64,000 bases of DNA, taken from the NCBI RefSeq assembly GCF_022842145.1, contig NZ_JALHQD010000010.1, forward strand, positions 10,356 to 74,355. The letters are read 5' to 3'. How positions within the stretch are numbered: position 1 is the first letter of the stretch; the number at the start of each line of letters is the position of its first letter. The notes below the pieces were generated by a model that made no database searches, was not told where the DNA came from, and worked only from the letters and a program-made list of their open reading frames with translations. This DNA is from Tabrizicola sp. GTDB lineage: Bacteria > Pseudomonadota > Alphaproteobacteria > Rhodobacterales > Rhodobacteraceae. A program made the translations under genes and the position numbers. This document shows, in pieces, positions 23,966-34,125 of this stretch.

Positions 23966-24016
23966 GGGGGTTTCAAACCCCCGCACCCCCGTGGGATATT
24001 TGTGCAAGGATGAAAG
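23966..24016. repeat. Dispersed intergenic repeat, copy 2
   Basis: GGGGGTTTCAAACCCCC hairpin followed by CCCCCGTGGGATATTTGTG and CAAGGATGAAAG. Almost identical to copy 1 at 801-848. It lies 14 bases after pdhC and 26 bases before the convergent phospholipid gene, where the hairpin could help end transcripts. Confidence 0.7.
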
Positions 24017-24041
24017 GGGGCCGGAAGGTCCCCTTTTTGAC

Positions 24042-24668
24042 TTAGCGCGCCTTGAGTTTGGTGATGAGCGTCGAGGAGCGGCGGAGGATCGTGATAGCCG
24101 CGCCCGCGACGATGATCCAGAGGGTGACGGTCAAGGTCCATTCCGTCGCATAGAGCGCGGCGAGGACGGTGCCAGCGGTCAGGACGGCCATGCGTTGCGG
24201 CTTGGCGAAGGGGCCGGAGAAATCAGGCGGGAAGCCCTCGGCCCGGCCAAGCTCGCGGATGTAGGCGGTGGCGATGGCAAGGGCGGCGGCGAGGAGGCCG
24301 AGGGCGGGATTGCCTGCGGCGAGGCCCGCGCCAGCGAAGAAGAGGAGGTCGGAGACGCGGTCGGGGGCCTCGTTCCAGAACGGGCCGTCCTTGGCGCCCT
24401 TGCCGCCCTCGATGGCGACCAAGCCGTCAATCAGGTTGCAGACGAGGCGGGCCTGGAGGGTGGCGGCGGCGATAAGGAGCGCGAGGAACTGGAGGAAGCC
24501 GGGGGCTTGCGGGGAGAGCCAATAAAGCAGGAACCCCAAGGCCGCGAAACCCATCGAGGCCTGGCTGATCTGGTTCGGGGTGATGCCCTTCAGCACGGCC
24601 CAGGAGGCAAGGCGCGCGGCCCAGGCGGAGTTGCGCGAGGTGAGGGGGCGGCGGTTCTCGTCGCTCAT
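24042..24668 (-). CDS. CDP-alcohol phosphatidyltransferase family membrane protein
   Basis: A 208-residue, roughly six-helix protein. CNLIDGLVAIEGGKGAKDG followed by FWNEAPDRVSD is a variant of the CDP-OH-P-transferase signature (DG...AR...G...D...D), with the metal-binding aspartates kept but the AR pair replaced and the spacing enlarged. It overlaps the CdsA-like gene by four bases and is the last of three phospholipid genes (PlsC-like, CdsA-like, this). It probably transfers a diacylglycerol-phosphate to an alcohol, or acts on another CDP-activated headgroup; the acceptor is unknown. Confidence 0.8.
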   Translation of the reverse strand: MSDENRRPLTSRNSAWAARLASWAVLKGITPNQISQASMGFAALGFLLYWLSPQAPGFLQFLALLIAAATLQARLVCNLIDGLVAIEGGKGAKDGPFWNEAPDRVSDLLFFAGAGLAAGNPALGLLAAALAIATAYIRELGRAEGFPPDFSGPFAKPQRMAVLTAGTVLAALYATEWTLTVTLWIIVAGAAITILRRSSTLITKLKAR

Positions 24669-25609
24669 GTGGTGGACCAGACCCAGCGAGTGATGTGGAA
24701 GAAGATCGGCGCGGCGAAGATCACGCTGTCCAGCCGGTCAAGGAAGCCGCCATGTCCTGCGATGAGGTGGCCCCAGTCCTTGATGCCCCGGTCACGCTTG
24801 ATGGCCGACATGACGAGGCCGCCGAAAAAGCCCATCAGGGTGATGAGGAGGCACATGCCAGCGGCTTCAAGCGGAGAGAACGGGGTCATCCAGTAAAGCG
24901 CCGTGCCAACGGCGGTGGCGGTGAGGGTGCCGCCGACCAACCCCTCCCAGGTCTTGGAGGGTGAGAGGTTCGGCGCGACCTTGGTGCGGCCGAGGAGCTT
25001 GCCCCAGACGTATTGCATGACGTCCGAAAGCTGCACGACGAAGATCAGATATGCGATGAGGATGACGTTGCGGCCCTCAAACCCGGGGATCTGCAGGTAG
25101 AGGAGCGCGGGGACATGGCTGGCGCAGTAGACGCAGATCATCAGCGCCCATTGGGTTTCCGACACGCGGATCAGGAAATCCTTGGTGGAGCCGCGGAGCG
25201 ACGAAATGACCGGCAGCAGGAGGAAGGCGTAGACCGGGATGAAGATCGAATACATCCCGTACCAGTCCCCCGCAAGAAACCAGTACTGCAGCGGCAGGAT
25301 CAGGAAGAAGCACGCGATCAGCGACCAGTGGTCGGCACGGTTGTGAGTGGTCAAGGTAAGGAACTCTCGCAACGCCGCAAAAGAGCAGAGCGCGAAGAGC
25401 AGGACCACCCCGGGCTTGCCCGCCACAAAGGCCAGCGCGAGGCAGATCACCATCACCCACCAGGCGTTGATGCGCGCATTCAGGTTCTCGATGACCGGGT
25501 TCTGTCCGGTGGGCGAGAGACGGGCTCGGAGGATTTCGCCGATGATGGACGCGACGACCAGGATGGTTCCAACGCCGGCAAGGAGCCAAAGGAGATGCGG
25601 GGACGTCAT
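24665..25609 (-). CDS. Phosphatidate cytidylyltransferase (CdsA-like)
   Basis: A 314-residue polytopic protein. The C-terminal KRDRGIKDWGHLIAGHGG with FLDRLDS is an exact CdsA signature (S-x-K-R-x4-K-D-x6-GHGG-x-DR-x-D), preceded by SPSKTWEGLVGG. It would make CDP-diacylglycerol from CTP and phosphatidic acid. It is probably not the sole housekeeping CdsA: this PlsC/CdsA/CDP-OH-PT trio is a separate accessory set found in some bacteria. Overlaps of four bases join it to both neighbours. Confidence 0.88.
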   Translation of the reverse strand: MTSPHLLWLLAGVGTILVVASIIGEILRARLSPTGQNPVIENLNARINAWWVMVICLALAFVAGKPGVVLLFALCSFAALREFLTLTTHNRADHWSLIACFFLILPLQYWFLAGDWYGMYSIFIPVYAFLLLPVISSLRGSTKDFLIRVSETQWALMICVYCASHVPALLYLQIPGFEGRNVILIAYLIFVVQLSDVMQYVWGKLLGRTKVAPNLSPSKTWEGLVGGTLTATAVGTALYWMTPFSPLEAAGMCLLITLMGFFGGLVMSAIKRDRGIKDWGHLIAGHGGFLDRLDSVIFAAPIFFHITRWVWSTT

Positions 25610-26247
25610 GCCTGCCCTTTCAACGCAAGGAGCGCCTGGGTCGCGCGGGCGAGGAAAGCCTCTTTGGTCTCTTGCGCTTCGAGGTGAAGGGGAGTGCCGA
25701 AGGTGAGAGTGCAGATCAGGGGGACGGGAATGACTTCACCCTTCGGCATCACGCGATTGAGGTTGGCAATCCAGACCGGGACAAGGTCGACGGCAGGACG
25801 AGCCTTGGCAAGGTGGTAAAGGCCGGACTTGAAAGGAAGGAGGGCCGCGTCAGAGCTGTTGCGCTGGCCCTCGGGGAAGATGATCAGCGAGGAACCCGTG
25901 TCCAGTGCGGCGACCATCTGGGCCACCGGATCCTCGGTCCTCGCCTCGGGGCGGCGGTCAATGAGGACAGCGTTGAACACCTCGCGCCCGATGAAGGCAC
26001 GAAGGGGCGAGGTCAGCCAGTAGTCCAGTGCGGCAACGGGACGGGTCTGACGGCGAAGGGGGGTGGGAAGTGCGGTCCACAGCAGGACGAAGTCGCCGTT
26101 CGACGAATGGTTGGCGAAGTAGACACGCTGTTTTGGCACCGGTTCGATTCCCTGCCAGATGGCACGGGGAGCGGTCATGAACCGGGCGAAGGTCGAGATG
26201 GCCAGCCCAGTCACGCGAGCTGCAAACACACGGAGCGAGGGGATCAT
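25606..26247 (-). CDS. PlsC-type 1-acyl-glycerol-3-phosphate acyltransferase
   Basis: A 213-residue acyltransferase. NHSSNGDFVLLW is the HxxxxD catalytic block (about 47-58) and FPEGQRNSSDAALLPFKSG is the FPEGxR block with the downstream conserved segment. It acylates a lysophospholipid or lysophosphatidate at the inner membrane. It heads a coupled run with CdsA-like and CDP-alcohol transferase genes, suggesting a dedicated route from acyl-glycerol-phosphate to a phospholipid. Confidence 0.88.
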   Translation of the reverse strand: MIPSLRVFAARVTGLAISTFARFMTAPRAIWQGIEPVPKQRVYFANHSSNGDFVLLWTALPTPLRRQTRPVAALDYWLTSPLRAFIGREVFNAVLIDRRPEARTEDPVAQMVAALDTGSSLIIFPEGQRNSSDAALLPFKSGLYHLAKARPAVDLVPVWIANLNRVMPKGEVIPVPLICTLTFGTPLHLEAQETKEAFLARATQALLALKGQA

Positions 26248-26257
26248 TTCGGAAAGA

Positions 26258-27064
26258 TCATTCCGCCTTCAAAATCTGATCCATGGTCAGCGCGGGCTGG
26301 GCGCAACCGGCCTTGCCGACGACACGCGCCGGGACCCCTGCGACGGTCGTGTTGGGAGGAACGTCTTCCAACACCACTGAACCCGCGGCGATCCGCGAGC
26401 ACTGACCAACACGGATGTTGCCCAGGACCTTTGCCCCGGCGCCAATCAGCACCCCATCCCCGATCTTGGGATGCCGGTCACCGTCTTCCTTGCCTGTCCC
26501 GCCGAGCGTCACGGAATGAAGCATCGAAACGTTGTCGCCGACGACAGCGGTTTCCCCGATGACGATGGAATGAGCATGGTCGATCATGATCCCCTTCCCG
26601 ACGCGGGCCGCGGGATGAATGTCGACGCCGAAGACTTCCGACACCCGCATCTGGATGAAATAGGCCAGATCGATGCGGCCAGATTGCCAGAGCCAGTGAC
26701 CGATGCGGTAAGCCTGAACGGCCTGGTAGCCCTTGAAGAAAAGAAGTGGCTGCAAAAATCGATGGCAGGCCGGGTCGCGTTCGTAGACTGCCATGAGGTC
26801 GGAGCGGGCAGCAGCACCAATTTCCGGCTCGCTGTCGTAAGCCTGATCGGCAATCTCGCGAAGCATCTGCTCGCTCATCTCTCCGGAGGCAAGCTTGAGC
26901 GAGAAGCGGTACGCCAGCGCACGCTCCAGGGTCGAATGATGCAGAAGTCCGGAGTGGATGAGCCCGCCCAGCAGCGGCTCGTTGCGGATTGCCTCGACCG
27001 CTTCTTCGGAAACCCGACGCCATACCGGGTCGATGGCAGTGACTTTGGATTTGGTTTCTAGCAT
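26258..27064 (-). CDS. cysE: Serine O-acetyltransferase
   Basis: A 268-residue CysE (acetyl-CoA + serine to O-acetylserine, cysteine synthesis). The N-terminal helical domain is followed by a left-handed beta-helix of hexapeptide repeats (about 150-245). DHAHSIVIGETAVVGDN and MLHSVTLGGTGKEDGDRHP carry the active-site His/Asp. The ATG at 27064 follows GGAGG; a GTG directly before it could also serve. The GTA remnant lies just upstream on the same strand, and as I recall the GTA locus is next to cysE in other Rhodobacterales. Confidence 0.95.
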   Translation of the reverse strand: MLETKSKVTAIDPVWRRVSEEAVEAIRNEPLLGGLIHSGLLHHSTLERALAYRFSLKLASGEMSEQMLREIADQAYDSEPEIGAAARSDLMAVYERDPACHRFLQPLLFFKGYQAVQAYRIGHWLWQSGRIDLAYFIQMRVSEVFGVDIHPAARVGKGIMIDHAHSIVIGETAVVGDNVSMLHSVTLGGTGKEDGDRHPKIGDGVLIGAGAKVLGNIRVGQCSRIAAGSVVLEDVPPNTTVAGVPARVVGKAGCAQPALTMDQILKAE

Positions 27065-27178
27065 CACACACGCCTCCGGCTGTGGCTCCTAGATACCACA
27101 ACCGGAAGGGCTGGCGACATGCATTTCTGTGAGGCTGGGCATCAATTTCCGGAATGATGCTCAGTGCACAAGGTGCTG

Positions 27179-27620
27179 TCAGGCCACGATGTCGATCTGC
27201 CGAAACGGTCCGGGACCAAAGGCACTCGACACCTGGGCGACCGAGACCTGGAAAGGTCCGACGACGCCGTCTGCTGCTTGCATGGGTGCCGTGTACAGAA
27301 ACTGCAGCTGCGAAACCACGTATTCTGCAACGATTGCGGACGATTGGAGCATCCGGACCATGTAAGCTTCAGCGTCTTCTCCCAGCGGAACCTCTGCTGA
27401 CTGCCATGAGTCACCGTCGATTCTGGTTCGACGCTTCCACGAAACGTGCAGATCTCCGGTCTCCGGGATTCCAAGCAGATGACTTACCGCGTACGGGCGC
27501 AGCCCAATTCCGTCGAACGCCTCGTTCCTGACGGTCACAAGCGGATCATCATAGCCACGCGCTGCCACTCCGATCCGGTAAAAGCGAGCAAGGCCTCGCG
27601 AGGAAATAGGCAGGTCGATC
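27179..27620 (-). pseudogene. 3' remnant of the terminal GTA tail gene (RcGTA gp15-type)
   Basis: An open frame of about 146 codons that begins without a start at the IS edge (27620) and ends at 27179. The residues RGLARFYRIGVAARGYDD, WKRRTRIDGDSW, EVPLGEDAEAYMV, TAPMQAADG and VSSAFGPGPF are what I remember from the C terminus of the large GTA host-specificity/tail protein (gp15), normally about 1300 residues. So only roughly the last tenth remains, and the rest of the gene plus g4-g14 is absent. A protein from the internal GTG/ATG is conceivable but unlikely to be functional. Confidence 0.75.
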
Positions 27621-27658
27621 TGGACCTGTCGCGGTTCTGTTCCGGTCAGGTGCTCATG

Positions 27659-27919
27659 TTAAGCGGCTTTGCGTTCGAAAGCCACGGGGCTTTTCCGGCC
27701 CAAGGCTGAGCGTCTGCGGCGTGGATTGTAGAAGCCGTTGATGTATTCGGAGATGGCAACTTCGACGTCTTGACGGGTCTGCTTGTTCGTGCGCCAGACC
27801 AGTTCTGCCTTGAGGGATTTGAAGAAACTCTCGACGGCGGCGTTATCATAACAATTTCCTTTGCCACTCATTGACGCCACCAGTCGATCGTTGCGCAAGA
27901 TTTTCTGGTAGTCGTAGCA
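27659..27919 (-). pseudogene. IS3 transposase orfB, C-terminal fragment
   Basis: About 86 codons from CYDYQKILR to the stop. MSGKGNCYDNAAVESFFKSL and INGFYNPRRRRSALG are the classical end of the IS3-group DDE transposase, including the glutamate of the DDE triad (AVESFF). The first two aspartates and the whole N-terminal part are deleted. The junction with orfA lies around 27919-27935. Confidence 0.85.
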
Positions 27920-28151
27920 GTTCCCTCTCCTCCTTGAGAATCCGGTTCTCACGCCGAAGCCGCTCATTCTCGCGCAAAAGGTTCTGGTCGGAGTCGGGTG
28001 GCCCTGCCTCGTCAGAAACCATCTTCACCCATTTGTTCAGGGTAGAAAGCCCAACCCCCAAATCAGACGCAACCTGACGCCATGTCAGGCCGCTGGTCTG
28101 TGCGATGCGAACCACATCACGCTTGAACTCGTCGCTGTGTATCGCTGCCAT
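27920..28151 (-). pseudogene. IS3 transposase orfA, 5' part (HTH)
   Basis: Starts MAAIHSDEFKRDVVRIAQTS and carries the IS3 helix-turn-helix (LTWRQVASDLGVGLSTLNKW) and the leucine-zipper start (LLRENERLRRENRILKEERE). It then runs out of family after EERE, where orfB sequence begins in another frame; the open frame continues out of phase to a stop at 27846. Upstream the same frame is open through the IS end into the GTA gene remnant, giving a potential fusion product from 28439. Confidence 0.85.
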
Positions 28152-28214
28152 ATCCGGTCTGCTTGATGGCGAGTATTGATCGCAAAAGACCGGAACGAAA
28201 CCGCGACAGGTCCA

Positions 28215-28439
28215 GACCGTCTCGGCCATCTGCGCCAACAGGAACGCCGCCACACCGTAGACGCCGACCCAGATCCGTTTCTCCAGCCGCTCCAGCGTCG
28301 CTTCGATCAGCCCCAGTCGGTATCCAAGACCGGCCCAGCGCTCTTCTGCGACGCGTTCGTTCGCTTCGATCCGCGCCGCCGCCGCGTCGAAGCTTTCATA
28401 CAGGAAGCGCGAACCTCCTTCGGTCCGACGCGCTGTCAT
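28215..28439 (-). pseudogene. Truncated GTA g3.5-like gene
   Basis: The first 75 codons (MTARRTEGGSRFLYESF..., ending ...LLAQMAETV at the IS edge) survive. There is an amphipathic helix (AAARIEANERVAEERWAGLG) and one transmembrane segment (VGVYGVAAFLLAQMA). Its position directly behind the portal gene (ATGA-type overlap, 28436-28439) matches the small orfg3.5 of the Rhodobacter capsulatus GTA. The frame continues in phase through the IS inverted repeat into orfA. Confidence 0.65.
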
Positions 28440-29614
28440 TCGTCGTCTGCCACCTTAGGCAGTCCCAAAAGCATTCGCTTTTCGGCGACGGACAGGAAAT
28501 CGGCCTGCGCGACCCGCGCCCATTGCTGGTCCCGCTCGGACGCCAGCGCCGGGACCTGATCCAGGTCCGGCTTCAGCTCGACCGCCTCACCCGCAAACCG
28601 CGACAGCCAGTGCGCCAGGTCAGCCATCACCTTTGTCGCCAGCGGCAGCACCGTCAGCCGATAGAAGGCACGGTTGGCCTCCTGGTAATTCGAGTAGGTC
28701 GCGTCGCCGGGAATCCCCAGCAGCATCGGCGGCACGCCGAAGGCAATCGCGATCTCCCGCGCGGCGGCTTCCTTGGTCTTCTGGAACTCCATGTCCGACG
28801 GGCTGAACCCCATCGGCTTCCAATCCAGCCCGCCCTCCAGCAGCATCGGCCGCCCGGCATTCCGCGCGCCCTGATGGTGTGCCTCCATCTCGCTCACCAG
28901 CCGGTCATACTGGTCCGACGACAGCGCGGCGGCCCCATCAGCGCCCTTGTAGACAATCGCCCCTGACGGCCGTGCAGCGTTGTCCAGCAGCGCCTTTGAC
29001 CAGGCCGAGGCGCTGTTGTGGACGTCCACCGCCAAGGCCGCCGCCTGCATCGGCGAGAACCCGTAGTGGTCGTCCTGCGGGTGGAACGTCTTCAGATGGC
29101 AGATCGGGCTCACCTCGCCCGTCACATCGTAACGGTGAGTCCGTCCGCTAACCGTGTAGTCATAAGCCACCGGCCAGCCGTCCGTGCCCGGCACCAGGTT
29201 CATCCGGTCCGACCGGAGCACATGCAACTCGCCCGGCACGGCGCTGACACCCGGCACCGCCTCGACATAGGCGTTCCCGGCCAGAAGAAGGTAGCCATAG
29301 ACCGCCTCCAGAAACTCCGCCCGGCCCTGCGCCCCGTTCGGGCGGCTGATCAGGTCCAGCACCGGATGCGTGTCGAACCGCTGCTCATGCGTCTGGCACA
29401 CCAACGGCAGCGCCGCCGCCGCCTCGGCGATCAGCCGCACCACCCGGAACCCGATCGGGTTGCCTTGAAAGCTGGTCCGCGTCAGGCTGCCCACGTCCCG
29501 CGGGCTCCAGGCCACGCGGCCCGCATTGCCCCAGGCGATCACCCGGCCCACGGCCGAGGCCTTGCGTTCCGGAACCGCCTCTACCGGCGCCTTCCGCAGA
29601 AAATCGAAGACCAT
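28436..29614 (-). CDS. GTA/HK97-family portal protein
   Basis: A 392-residue phage portal protein, full length. AAAALPLVCQTHEQRFDTHPVLDL (core LPLVCQ...HPVLDLISRPN), YGYLLLAGNAYVE, LRSDRMNLVPG, FGFSPMQAAALAVD-like and GVPPMLLGIPGDATYSNYQEA are standard HK97 portal blocks. It would form the DNA-entry ring of the GTA head. It is third in the order TerS-TerL-portal-g3.5 seen in Rhodobacterales GTAs. The capsid genes that should follow are missing, so it can no longer build a particle from this locus. Confidence 0.92.
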   Translation of the reverse strand: MVFDFLRKAPVEAVPERKASAVGRVIAWGNAGRVAWSPRDVGSLTRTSFQGNPIGFRVVRLIAEAAAALPLVCQTHEQRFDTHPVLDLISRPNGAQGRAEFLEAVYGYLLLAGNAYVEAVPGVSAVPGELHVLRSDRMNLVPGTDGWPVAYDYTVSGRTHRYDVTGEVSPICHLKTFHPQDDHYGFSPMQAAALAVDVHNSASAWSKALLDNAARPSGAIVYKGADGAAALSSDQYDRLVSEMEAHHQGARNAGRPMLLEGGLDWKPMGFSPSDMEFQKTKEAAAREIAIAFGVPPMLLGIPGDATYSNYQEANRAFYRLTVLPLATKVMADLAHWLSRFAGEAVELKPDLDQVPALASERDQQWARVAQADFLSVAEKRMLLGLPKVADDE

Positions 29615-29703
29615 CCTCGCACTCCTTCATGCCGCAGGCAGCGCCCGACAATCCGGGCTGCCTGAAGCGCCCGGTCATATGACCTGCCAATTCCCTAGAT
29701 CCG

Positions 29704-31044
29704 CTAAAGCGACCGCACGCTGGGCCGGCCGCCATGCAACGGGGCCAGCATCAGGTCGGTCAGCGCCCAGACCAGCGCATCCAGCCGGTCCGGAGACCCC
29801 GCCCCCTGCCAGCCCACCGCCGTCATCCTGCCCATCTGCTCTTCCAGCGGCCCCAGGCCACGGACATGGGCAACCCGGCCCTGCTCATACAAAGCCGCCA
29901 CCGGCTCGGCCCGCAGCATCTTCGACCGTGTCGCATGGACCGCGCGGAACGGCACCAAGGGATCGATCATCCGCACCAGCTGCTCCACCAGGTCGCCACC
30001 CTGGTTGACCTCGGCCACCAGCCGGTCCGCCCCGTGCCGCTCCATCGCCGCCAGCGCCGCCCGCGCCCAGCCCTCGGGCGAGGCGCCCTTCACCGAGGCA
30101 TCCTCCAGAACCACCGCGCGCCAATCCTTTGGCTCGCCGCGCGTGTCCGCGCCGACGACCACAATGCCGCACTCGTCGCTCGACTTCGTCGATGTCACCG
30201 GTGGGTCAACCGCCACCACGATCCGGTTCACCTGCGGCATCTGGTCCACGCGAGCCGCTTCCAGCATCGCGGATGTCCAAAGCGCCCCGTCCGCCTCCTC
30301 GATGAGCAGACCCTCCAGCTCCTGCCGGCCGAACTTTGTCCCGCCGTACCTCGCCTGCACCTCGGCCAGGAAGCTTTCCGCCAGATAGGCCCGGTTCGCC
30401 TCGGTCGGCGCATGGGTAATCACCGACGACGGGTTCTTCAGGATCGCCTTCAAGACCCCCACATTGCGCGGGGTCGTCGTCACCACCGCCTGCGGGTTCC
30501 GCCCCAGCCGCAGGGCAAACTGCAGCTGGTCCCAGGCCTCGGCTCCCTTCTTCCACTTGCCCAGCTCATCCGCCCAAGCCGCATCGAACTGCGGCCCCCG
30601 CATCGCCTCGAGCTCATGCGCCGAAAACACCTGCGCGACGGCACCGTTCGGCCACAGCAACTGGTGCTTCGACGCCTGCCACTCCGGCTTCCGGTCCGGC
30701 GGCGAGCAAGCCATGATCCCGCTCTCCCCCAACACCATCACATCGCGCGCCTGATCGATGGTCTCGCCCACCAGCGCCACCCGCTTGGCCTTGCCCGGAT
30801 CGGCAGGCCCGGCGCCCTCGACCTGCGCCCGAACCCATTCCGACCCGGCCCGCGTCTTGCCCGCACCCCGACCACCCATGATGACCCAGGTCTTCCAGGC
30901 CCCCCGTGGCGGCAGCTGATGCGGCAGCGCCCAGAACTCGAAGACCCAAGGCAGCGCCAGCAACGCGTTCTGGCTTAAGCCAGACAGGAATTCATCCACT
31001 TCCTCCGGCGCCGCGGAGGCAAGCCAGGCGGCGCCCGATTTCAA
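29704..31044 (-). CDS. GTA terminase large subunit (packaging ATPase/nuclease)
   Basis: About 446 residues from a TTG at 31044, chosen for its GAGG site six bases upstream and because the family protein begins near GAAWLASAAPEEVDEFL; upstream in-frame sequence only overlaps the TerS gene. Walker A GGRGAGKT (about 57-64), Walker B with WADELGKW, and RNase H-like nuclease residues in VVAVDPPVTS, VAEVNQGGDLV and DALVWALTDLML are intact. It packages headfuls of host DNA in a GTA. It overlaps the small-subunit gene by about 50 bases in another frame. Confidence 0.9.
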   Translation of the reverse strand: MKSGAAWLASAAPEEVDEFLSGLSQNALLALPWVFEFWALPHQLPPRGAWKTWVIMGGRGAGKTRAGSEWVRAQVEGAGPADPGKAKRVALVGETIDQARDVMVLGESGIMACSPPDRKPEWQASKHQLLWPNGAVAQVFSAHELEAMRGPQFDAAWADELGKWKKGAEAWDQLQFALRLGRNPQAVVTTTPRNVGVLKAILKNPSSVITHAPTEANRAYLAESFLAEVQARYGGTKFGRQELEGLLIEEADGALWTSAMLEAARVDQMPQVNRIVVAVDPPVTSTKSSDECGIVVVGADTRGEPKDWRAVVLEDASVKGASPEGWARAALAAMERHGADRLVAEVNQGGDLVEQLVRMIDPLVPFRAVHATRSKMLRAEPVAALYEQGRVAHVRGLGPLEEQMGRMTAVGWQGAGSPDRLDALVWALTDLMLAPLHGGRPSVRSL

Positions 31045-31321
31045 CTCGGGCCTCGTCAAGGTCGAGCGCCCCTCCGGCTCCGATGTGGCCGGCGATCTGC
31101 TTGCGGAGTTGGTCAACTTTTCCCCTTTCCCGCAGCACATGCTGCGCCGTCTCGCGAAGATCGCGGATCGCATCCTGTGCCGCCTTCACTTCGTTGAATT
31201 CCCCGGCCTTCAGGGCGGTCATCGTCCGTTCAAGTTCGATGACCGCATCTTCGTAAAGCCGTTCCGTGACCCCCAGGACATCCTCTGGCGCGGGCACGTC
31301 CCCCGTGAACCTCACTGTCAT
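30992..31321 (-). CDS. GTA terminase small subunit (g1-like)
   Basis: A 109-residue helical protein: RLYEDAVIELERTMTALK and AAQDAIRDLRETAQHVLRERGKVDQL form coiled-coil-like helices, followed by a short tail. Placement upstream of and overlapping the large terminase, size and helical make-up match g1 of the R. capsulatus GTA, identified as TerS. It is the first gene of the remnant GTA cluster; its promoter should lie in 31322-31363, next to the mltG terminator. Confidence 0.8.
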   Translation of the reverse strand: MTVRFTGDVPAPEDVLGVTERLYEDAVIELERTMTALKAGEFNEVKAAQDAIRDLRETAQHVLRERGKVDQLRKQIAGHIGAGGALDLDEARVEIGRRLACLRGAGGSG

Positions 31322-31363
31322 CTAGTCCCGTCACCCCTCATGCTGCCCCCGCACGAAGGAAAT

Positions 31364-31400
31364 GAAAAAGCGGCCAACGGGGAGGCACCCCGGGCCGCTT
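31364..31400 (-). terminator. Rho-independent terminator downstream of mltG
   Basis: On the minus strand a long stem (AAGCGGCC at 31393-31400 against GGCCGCTT at 31368-31375, with inner CGGGG/CCCCG pairs) is followed by a TTTTT run. It separates the fabF-mltG transcript from the GTA genes that start at 31321. Confidence 0.85.
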
Positions 31401-31514
31401 CGACACTTCTTCTAGCATGCCAAAAGGTCTACATCAGACCGCGCGGCAAGTCAAGCTAAAAACACAATTAGATCAATGGCTTGACAGGACGCTCCCTTCA
31501 GGAAGCGTTAACCT

Positions 31515-32693
31515 TCATTCGCCCTGCACGCCGGTTTCTTCCGCAGCACCCCGCTCTGCTTCGATTGCACGCCAGCGGGCGACGTTCTCGTTATGCTCGT
31601 CCAGCGTCTGCGCGAAGGCATGGCCGCCGGTGCCATCTGCCACGAAGAAGATGTAATCCGTCGTATCAGGATCCACCGCCGCCCGGATCGAGGCCTCTCC
31701 GGGATTCGCGATGGGGGTCGGTGGCAAACCGTCGATCACATAGGTGTTGTAGGGCGTCTCGCGGCGCAGCTCGCTTTGCCGCAAACCGCGGCCAAGCACC
31801 CCTTCGCCATTGGTGATGCCGTAGATCACCGTCGGATCGGTCTGCAGCCGCATGCCTTGCTGCATGCGGTTGACGAAGACACTGGCCACGCGGCCCCGCT
31901 CCTCGGGAACCGACGTTTCCTTCTCGATGATCGAGGCCATGATCAGCGCCTCTTCCGGAGTGTCATAGGGCAGCCCTTCGGCCCGGCCTGCCCAGGCCTC
32001 GGCCAGGACTGCCGCCTGCCGCTCGGTCATCTCGGCGATGATCGCACCGCGCTCACTGCCGCGCTCCACCTCGTAACCGCCCGGCGCCAGAGACCCTTCC
32101 GGAGGAACCGTCTCCAGCGAACCTTGCAGAAAGTCCGCCTTCTTCAGGGCATCGACAATCTGCCAGCTGGTCACGCCCTCGGCGACCGTCACGCGGAAGA
32201 CCAACGCCGGATCGTCCGAAACCTCCAGATACTCCGGCGGCAAGGGGTCGGTTCCAGCATCGAAGCGGGTGACTTCGGCATAGGAGTTGGTGGTCAGATC
32301 CAGTTCGCTCAGCACGACATCTGCCCGGTTCACGCCGATCCGGAAGTTCAGGTCTCGCCCGCAGGTGGACCTGCCGCTTGCCGTGATCGCGTCCAGCACC
32401 TCGGACATGCTGGCATTGGCGTCGACCATGTAGCTGCCGAACTTCAGGTCATCTGCCCGGTCGGCATATTCTGCACCGATCCGGAAGATGCGCGCGTCGC
32501 TGATCGCGCCCCGCTCTTCCAGGCTGCGGCTCACCGCCGACAGCGAGGCACCCCGCTCCACCTCCAGGCAGATCGGTTGGGCCAGCGGTCCGGGTGCCAC
32601 GAACTCGTTCCGCCCCCAGGCGACCAGGGCCGCCATCGCGACCAGAAGCACGATGAACAGCGTCAGCGCGTTCGAGGCGACCGACCGCCACAT
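31515..32693 (-). CDS. mltG: Endolytic murein transglycosylase MltG (YceG-like)
   Basis: A 392-residue inner-membrane protein: N-terminal anchor (ALTLFIVLLVAMAALVAWG, about 9-27), a LysM-like region (about 40-90), and a YceG catalytic domain. ASIIEKETSVPEERGRVASV holds the catalytic Glu (about 257), and the later YNTYVIDGLPPTPIANPG is a strict family block. It cuts nascent glycan chains. Three bases separate it from fabF; fabF-mltG is a common alphaproteobacterial pair. Confidence 0.95.
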   Translation of the reverse strand: MWRSVASNALTLFIVLLVAMAALVAWGRNEFVAPGPLAQPICLEVERGASLSAVSRSLEERGAISDARIFRIGAEYADRADDLKFGSYMVDANASMSEVLDAITASGRSTCGRDLNFRIGVNRADVVLSELDLTTNSYAEVTRFDAGTDPLPPEYLEVSDDPALVFRVTVAEGVTSWQIVDALKKADFLQGSLETVPPEGSLAPGGYEVERGSERGAIIAEMTERQAAVLAEAWAGRAEGLPYDTPEEALIMASIIEKETSVPEERGRVASVFVNRMQQGMRLQTDPTVIYGITNGEGVLGRGLRQSELRRETPYNTYVIDGLPPTPIANPGEASIRAAVDPDTTDYIFFVADGTGGHAFAQTLDEHNENVARWRAIEAERGAAEETGVQGE

Positions 32694-32696
32694 CCC

Positions 32697-33956
32697 TCAG
32701 CGCACCTTGCCCAGGACAAGGCTCGCATTGGTACCGCCAAAGCCGAAGCTGTTCGACAGCGCCACGTCGATCTTGCGCTTGACCGCCTTGTTCGGCGCCA
32801 GGTCCAGCTTTGGCGTCACCGCCGGATTGTCCAGGTTGATCGTCGGCGGCGCGACCTGGTCGCGGATCGCGAGCACGCAGAAGATCGCCTCAACCGCACC
32901 CGCCGCTCCCAACAGGTGTCCGATCGAGGACTTCGTCGACGACATCGTCACCTGCGGTGCATGGTCGCCCAGAAGCCGCTCCACCGCTCCAAGTTCGATG
33001 GTATCGGCCATCGTCGAGGTCCCGTGGGCGTTGATGTAGTCGATGTCCGACGCCTCCAGCCCCGCCCGCTTCAACGCGGCCGCCATGCTGCGATAGCCAC
33101 CATCCCCGTCCTCGGACGGCGCGGTGATGTGGTAGGCGTCGCCCGAAAGGCCGTAGCCAAGAACCTCGCAGTAGATCTTCGCACCGCGGGCCTTGGCGTG
33201 TTCGTACTCCTCCAGGACGACGATCCCGGCACCCTCGCCCATCACGAACCCGTCGCGGTCGGCGTCATAGGGGCGGCTGGCCGTCTCCGGCGCGTCGGCC
33301 CGCTTCGTGGACAGGGCCTTGCACGCGTTGAACCCGGCGATCCCGATCTCGCTGATCGGGCTTTCCGCCCCACCCGCGACCATCACGTCGGCATCCCCCC
33401 ACATGATCAACCGCGCCGCATCCCCGATGGCATGCGCGCCGGTGGAGCAGGCGGTGACGACGGCATGGTTCGGCCCCTTGAAGCCGAAGCGGATCGAGAC
33501 CTGCCCGGAAACGAGGTTGATCAGCGCGCCCGGAATGAAGAAGGGCGAGACCCGCTTCGGGCCCTTTTCCTTGATCAGGACCGCCGTGGCGGCGATGGAA
33601 TTCAGCCCGCCGATCCCGGACCCGATCATCACGCCGGTCCGGAGCTTCTCCTCCTCCGGGATGTCATCCCAGCCGGCATCGCGGACGGCCTGCACGGCGG
33701 CGGCCATCCCGTAGATGATGAAGTCGTCGACCTTGCGCTGCTCTTTCGGCTCCATCCAGTCGTCGGGATTGAAGGAGCCGTTTGAGCCGTCGCCCATCGG
33801 GATCTCGCAGGCGTACTGGGTCACGACGTTCGAGCTGTCGAACTTGGTGATCGTTCCCGCACCGGACTGGCCGGCGATCAGGCGGGACCAGGTTTCTTCG
33901 ACCCCGCAGGCCAGAGGGGTGACCATTCCAAGACCGGTGACCACGACACGCCGCAT
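32697..33956 (-). CDS. fabF: 3-oxoacyl-ACP synthase II (KAS II)
   Basis: A 419-residue condensing enzyme. Catalytic triad blocks: VTACSTGAHAIGDA (Cys about 170), INAHGTSTMADT (His) and SSIGHLLGAAGAVE (His), with NSFGFGGTNASL at the C terminus. It elongates acyl-ACP with malonyl-ACP. Start MRRVVVTGLG at 33956 follows AGGGAGA; a start 15 bases upstream lacks a site. It is cut off from acpP, its usual upstream neighbour, by two unrelated genes. Confidence 0.97.
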   Translation of the reverse strand: MRRVVVTGLGMVTPLACGVEETWSRLIAGQSGAGTITKFDSSNVVTQYACEIPMGDGSNGSFNPDDWMEPKEQRKVDDFIIYGMAAAVQAVRDAGWDDIPEEEKLRTGVMIGSGIGGLNSIAATAVLIKEKGPKRVSPFFIPGALINLVSGQVSIRFGFKGPNHAVVTACSTGAHAIGDAARLIMWGDADVMVAGGAESPISEIGIAGFNACKALSTKRADAPETASRPYDADRDGFVMGEGAGIVVLEEYEHAKARGAKIYCEVLGYGLSGDAYHITAPSEDGDGGYRSMAAALKRAGLEASDIDYINAHGTSTMADTIELGAVERLLGDHAPQVTMSSTKSSIGHLLGAAGAVEAIFCVLAIRDQVAPPTINLDNPAVTPKLDLAPNKAVKRKIDVALSNSFGFGGTNASLVLGKVR

Positions 33957-34125
33957 TCTGCTCTCCCTCACGGATCAGGCTTTTCCGGGTGATACACGGC
34001 CCCCCGAACCCGCGCAACCTTGGGGCAACGAGATCGGCGGGCCGATGGCTGCGCCACGCGTGGCCGCTATTTCAGGGGCAATGAAATCAACGCCGTGGCT
34101 GCGGACGTTCAGAAAGCCTTAACCA

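Follow-up and report, generated by a model that had tools for sequence, protein, structure and literature searches.

An event associated with an insertion sequence (IS) has, with high probability, deleted about 10.3 kb from a gene transfer agent (GTA) cluster of the Rhodobacter capsulatus type (RcGTA) in this strain of Tabrizicola sp., very probably leaving the strain unable to make GTA particles. The cluster is on the minus strand of the window, which is the whole 64,000-nt stretch of DNA that was analysed; the genome it comes from is labelled G000. Reading along the minus strand, the order is TerS, TerL, portal, the start of g3.5, the IS, the end of g15 and cysE. This order had been given in a preliminary description of the sequence, and its gene order, frames and coordinates hold almost to the base. 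The GTA head-start genes g1–g3 are in RcGTA order with open frames, and the claim that the TerL and portal frames are open is thus borne out.

Gene g1 (positions 30992–31321, minus strand, as are all features of the locus) encodes 109 aa in an open frame and aligns over its full length with g1 of G008, a relative whose cluster is whole and consists of 17 genes, named g1–g15 by order. It has no match in Pfam, PHROG, NCBIfam or PDB, and is identified as the small terminase by position. Gene g2 (29704–31173) is the large terminase, TerL, with an open frame of 489 aa that has the Pfam domains Terminase_6N and 6C and is 93% identical to that of G008. Gene g3 (28436–29614) is the portal, also open, with 392 aa and a match to PF04860; it matches the RcGTA portal Rcc01684 of PDB 6TBA with an E of 3e-187. 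The g3.5 remnant (28215–28439) consists of the first 75 of 81 codons, as seen by alignment with G008 and by a match to NF048001 (GTA head formation protein) that covers positions 1–67 of 70. Its frame continues into the IS and forms a fused frame of 197 aa. The IS, of the IS3 family, is 594 bp (27621–28214) and separates this remnant from that of g15, the megatron baseplate protein, of which the last 146 codons and the stop codon are present (27179–27620). The g15 remnant corresponds to residues 1158–1301 of the 1304 in 6tba_8A, the C-terminal part of the RcGTA chain (E 1e-41), and to positions 1153–1297 of the 1299 in the NCBIfam model GTA_megatron. The latter match scores 124 bits, and as the cut-off of 800 is for the whole protein, a fragment necessarily scores below it. 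This model matches in 2 of 14 control genomes and exceeds its cut-off in one. The two matches uphold the proposal that the 27179–27620 frame is of the gp15 type. The cluster is flanked downstream by an intact cysE, encoding serine acetyltransferase (26258–27067; PF06426, TIGR01172), and upstream by mltG/yceG (31515–32693; PF02618). Both are syntenic in G008.

Alignment with the G008 cluster places the breakpoints at window positions 28215/28214 and 27621/27620. The segment of G008 that has no counterpart at the locus is about 10.3 kb (11983–22318 of L018+L019) and comprises the last codons of g3.5, all of g4–g14, and codons 1–1151 of the 1297 in g15. The same alignment confirms the 75 codons of g3.5 and 146 codons of g15 that had been described as remaining. 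In an alignment with seven relatives of the same genus, homology runs up to the base adjoining the IS, 28215, and ends there in all seven. It restarts at 27616–27624 in five of them, although the similarity in G016 and G023 is weak, at 65–66% identity. In G011 and G007 homology restarts only near cysE, at 27129 and 27064, respectively, because g15 diverges faster. The junction is well inside a contig of 179,622 bp, near 38 kb. The exact GTA junction sequence was also sought in public viral contigs, where it has no match.

The IS at the junction has the ends TGGACC...GGTCCA and terminal inverted repeats of 27 bp, 25 of which are identical. Its coding remains comprise an HTH region of the IS3 type at one end and, at the opposite end, a match to the final 79 positions of the IS3 transposase model; NF033516 matches both ends of the transposase. 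One further copy was found in the genome. It is full-length, at 1227 bp (G000:C5:187993–189219), and the GTA copy is equal to it less 633 internal bp and with a few substitutions. The IS3 remnant of the preliminary description is therefore of the IS3 family as stated, but it is not ragged: both terminal repeats are preserved and the sequence lost is internal. Both copies are devoid of a whole transposase frame, and both are without a target duplication. The target duplication of IS3-family elements is 3–4 bp; the flanks of the GTA copy, GGTC and GATC, differ, as is expected when one side has been deleted. A stretch of 295 bp is identical between the two copies, so that the join at short range depends on the assembler, although the gene order on both sides matches that of the relatives. 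The C5 copy was considered as a recombination partner and was rejected: its flanks do not pair with those of the GTA copy, and neither copy has target duplications. A search of the genus with the full IS copy found elsewhere diverged relatives only, the best-scoring one having 71% identity, in G020. In this same genome, at G020:C19:58672–60286 (in L203), pieces 76–80% identical to the IS abut a second megatron fragment that is outside the GTA cluster; a related IS may have truncated this second megatron gene too.

These features suggest the following course of events. The ancestral strain would have had an intact RcGTA-type head-tail cluster, as found in its nearest relatives. An event at an IS3-family element would then have removed the segment from the end of g3.5 through codon 1151 of g15, with the IS left at the junction. 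The deletion may have been an IS-adjacent deletion, or a recombination between two direct IS copies. Either route would leave a single IS whose flanks lack matching target duplications, so the two cannot be told apart from the sequence. The 633-bp internal deletion of the IS would represent a separate event. TerS, TerL and portal would persist as unused relics. A point against this explanation is that the sole other IS copy found has a broken transposase, and a present source of transposition is not seen. The preliminary description spoke of a recent IS-mediated deletion. The association with the IS stands; the term recent is not borne out, as the event can be placed only somewhere on a terminal branch of approximately 0.1 substitutions per site, and the fibre-like gene described below, which is unlinked to the cluster, has two frameshifts.

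The missing genes were sought in the remainder of the genome, a draft of 18 contigs and 4.33 Mb that is scored as 99.99% complete. The capsid and g15 were searched at the protein level and g4 and g6–g14 by DNA alone. TerL occurs once. The major capsid gene g5 has no match at E <= 0.001 in the protein-level search of the genome, and there is no second g15, only the remnant being found. The 7.9 kb of core DNA (end of g3.5, g4–g14 and start of g15) gave only one match in the genome, of 31 bp (E 1e-4), with 40 of 200 candidates scored. By this DNA search and the locus itself, the tail and baseplate genes g6–g15 are not present whole, the 146 codons of g15 being all that is left. The absence of g4–g14 that had been proposed is thus confirmed at the locus, where they have no counterpart, and by DNA they are not found elsewhere in the assembly. 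In RcGTA, assembly of particles is impossible without protease, capsid and tail. As genes for the protease, capsid and tail and for a complete baseplate were not found here, GTA particles are probably absent, and GTA production has very probably been lost in the strain. The description of the strain as GTA-negative at this locus is likewise supported, no capsid or g4–g14 having been found in the assembly.

Two dispersed loci outside the cluster were examined as well. An endolysin (GH108) and a GTA holin (PF11351) are found at L235 9214–10316 on G000:C8, and both frames are open. The GTA holin is present in all 23 good genomes of the genus (>= 90% complete, <= 5% contamination), including the two others with gutted clusters discussed below, and in none of 14 controls. 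A DUF2793 gene, whose protein is presumably of the RcGTA tail-fibre type, is found at L245 4335–7461 on G000:C1. It has two frameshifts and is split over three frames. The G008 counterpart is open over 1046 codons; the gene is also open in G009 and G020, and in G042 it runs off the contig end. Further DUF2793 copies in the genus adjoin megatron genes outside the GTA cluster, so that the fibre-like gene is taken as an orthologue on the grounds of its position and its similarity to that of G008. The DUF2793 model matches in 1 of the 14 control genomes. The frameshifts raise the possibility that function was lost first, for instance through the fibre gene, and that the IS deletion removed a cluster that was already dead. 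Two frameshifts occur in the fibre-like gene and none in the approximately 3.5 kb of remaining cluster frames, which speaks for such a history. However, the fibre gene is repetitive and slippage is likelier there, and with so few lesions the events cannot be put in order. This sequence of events is possible but somewhat doubtful. It is compatible with the IS-associated deletion.

A survey of the genus shows that this strain is not the sole one with a disrupted cluster. The set consists of 32 genomes, 23 of them good as defined above, and GTA loci were scored gene by gene in 31; G010, which is 59% complete, yielded none. The capsid gene is present in 20 of the 23 good genomes and, in the full set, in 27 of 32. 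G000, G042 and G020 are the good genomes that lack it. In G042 the cluster stops in portal codon 175 and restarts at g15 codon 1250. TerS and TerL are retained and most of the portal is gone. The two contigs share a terminal sequence of 60 bases, as read inward, that has eight occurrences at <= 3 mismatches, seven of them at contig ends and the eighth on C4. In G020, which has no TerS, TerL or portal, the cluster stops just upstream of g1 and restarts at g15 codon 620. A 28-bp end is shared by the two contigs in inverted orientation, and one of them runs into the frame MGLLNIIRRMHL, which we take to be IS21-like. The joins in G042 and G020 are unassembled, and an IS-mediated deletion in these genomes is inferred from the contig ends. 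A fourth genome, G041 (end of L198, start of L199), has g15 split at codon 729 between two contigs by what is a simple insertion. At their ends these contigs carry an element whose first frame is IS3-like, and by our reading there is a 4-bp duplication, CCGG. The g15 insertion in G041 may represent an initial stage on the way to a deletion of this kind.

Other lesions were noted and not counted as losses. In G007 (L024 near 9616), terL has lost one base in a G run, and G016 (L022+L023) has a TAG at g15 codon 661; each may be real or a sequencing error. Broken or split frames in fragmented or below-quality genomes (e.g., G006, G018, G043, G046) were likewise left out of the count. A repeated stop in g11 is in the stretch of the chosen G008 start and is read as an artefact.

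A phylogenetic tree built on the fabF, mltG and cysE genes of 24 genomes, rooted at the midpoint, joins G000 to G006+G008 (98), G042 to G001 (100) and G020 to G024 (100). When terL and portal are added, G042 joins G001+G021 (100). The core is kept in G001, G008, G021, G024 and G006; the last of these is 80% complete and has a frame change close to the g15 end. The losses in G000, G042 and G020 look independent, as they are on separate branches beside core-keeping genomes and have different mobile-element ends at the break. A shared ancestral deletion in the three gutted genomes was rejected, with branches separate and breakpoints and elements different. The right-hand ends are all in g15, but this gene makes up more than a quarter of the cluster and the ends are biased rightward, so that no statistics are drawn from this.

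The genes that remain in G000 were compared for selection by pairwise Nei-Gojobori analysis, as the mean pN/pS against genomes whose core is intact (the reference is without G000, G020, G041 and G042). Relaxed selection on terL and portal was sought, as the preliminary description had proposed, and was not seen: the mean pN/pS of TerL is third lowest and that of portal second lowest of 22. The value for g1, a short gene that overlaps g2, is the second highest of 22. This counts against the explanation given above, although it may be that the loss occurred late on the branch or that the test is underpowered. TerL and portal may still be made, with the promoter region and leader intact. The open frames, the low pN/pS of TerL and portal and the conserved promoter and leader could all be taken to mean that the TerS-TerL-portal module has been kept for another job, e.g., helping another element to package DNA. 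This is very unlikely, as the three genomes have no retained module in common (G042 has lost most of the portal, and G020 all three genes), the search of the genome yielded no related capsid, and a short time since the loss equally explains the open frames. It is hardly credible that the cluster is intact and that the assembler joined portal to the g15 end through the repeated IS: the IS does occur twice in an 18-contig draft with an identical stretch of 295 bp, yet the missing 10 kb was not found on any contig of this nearly complete genome, the GTA copy has a private internal deletion, and the related G008 locus was recovered whole. An IS-associated deletion thus remains the preferred explanation.

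Upstream of g1 is a conserved leader (31454–31355, minus strand). It begins with a sigma-70-like GTA promoter (31426–31454), TTGACT and TAGACC separated by 17 nt, which was read from the sequence and is seen in relatives. This is followed by CATGCTAGAAGAAGTG and then, before g1, by a hairpin with a T run (31367–31401). The hairpin in the window folds at -25.6 kcal/mol with a z of -4.55. The leader motif is found at <= 6 edits in 58 of 71 related loci, and the exact 28-base core is present in 18 of 30 loci of the genus. Five of 76 loci (L085, L095, L099, L102 and L107) were omitted, two of them as too short upstream and three as having partial or end-of-contig matches. When the window and 46 of the 58 motif loci were aligned, all 47 fold at -22 to -32 kcal/mol. 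Four leaders were compared with 200 shuffles each, and every real fold beats all shuffles. A pass/fail flag for the fold, positive in 28 of 47, failed through the outer pairs and was unused. RNAalifold on the plain alignment gave 11 pairs, 3 of them with changes on both sides, and missed the hairpin owing to differences in loop length; no covariation is therefore claimed. Rfam has no match up to E 1 in window positions 24000–34000. The built-in promoter and terminator scans flag nothing in the leader, the promoter scan using a stricter consensus, and a home-made terminator scan that flagged 30 of 71 leaders was too strict and was dropped.

Passages in PMC11150451 describe Caulobacter GafZ as an anti-terminator, and the authors consider that R. 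capsulatus GafA might have an unrecognised anti-termination activity. The word 'terminator' is absent from the main text of two papers on R. capsulatus GafA (PMC9638019, PMC6363796). Anti-termination by GafA would require a promoter-proximal terminator, and the leader hairpin could be such a terminator. The leader also has, at 31418–31338 (minus strand), a stretch that opens with a short frame, ATG CTN GAA GAR GTG (MLEEV). In 65 rows with the start, which include a few mis-hits, changes at codons 2 and 4 are mostly silent. Five loci are without the start and two without a match, and the length beyond varies from 5 to more than 80 codons. This frame is a possible leader peptide.

GTA loss has already been described. 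That GTAs have been pseudogenised or lost in multiple lineages of Alphaproteobacteria, which possibly represent cheaters, is reported in passages of Kogay and Zhaxybayeva (2024, PMC10883770), where the persistence of costly, suicidal GTA production is treated as an open question in which GTA-negative cheaters are central. Among the matches listed in a literature search, judged by title and the opening of the abstract and with subscription journals mostly outside its scope, none concerned IS-linked GTA loss or the GTAs of Tabrizicola. A recurrent IS-linked route is a modest addition to what is known. With three mapped, apparently independent losses beside core-keeping species, the cost and benefit of GTAs become directly comparable. 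A caution also follows, in that terL and portal by themselves are not evidence of a working GTA. The survival of cysE fits a non-producing recipient, without proving it, in light of what PMC9552610 reports for R. capsulatus. A more speculative and rather improbable proposal for the genus as a whole is that GTAs are lost repeatedly via IS elements, with an insertion in g15, as in G041, as the first step and deletion as the second, and that the losers, which keep cysE and a GTA-type holin, may still import DNA from GTAs and may still respond to the GTA signal by lysis, while producing no particles.

In comparison with known systems, the order g1, g2, g3, g3.5 ... g15, cysE is that of the RcGTA cluster in R. 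capsulatus and its relatives in the Rhodobacterales. Unlike that cluster, the locus described here is missing g4–g14 and 1151 of the 1297 codons of g15, and has an IS at the join. G042, G020 and G041 resemble it in that the GTA is disrupted, with mobile-element-like ends at the break, but the elements and breakpoints are different. The strain is also similar to the cheater lineages as described in passages of PMC10883770: it has a GTA-negative genome in a mostly GTA-positive genus, and the recipient-linked cysE is kept. It goes beyond the lineages described there in that its lesion is mapped at single-base resolution and linked to an IS, and in that the two other losses in the genus end in mobile-element-like sequence.
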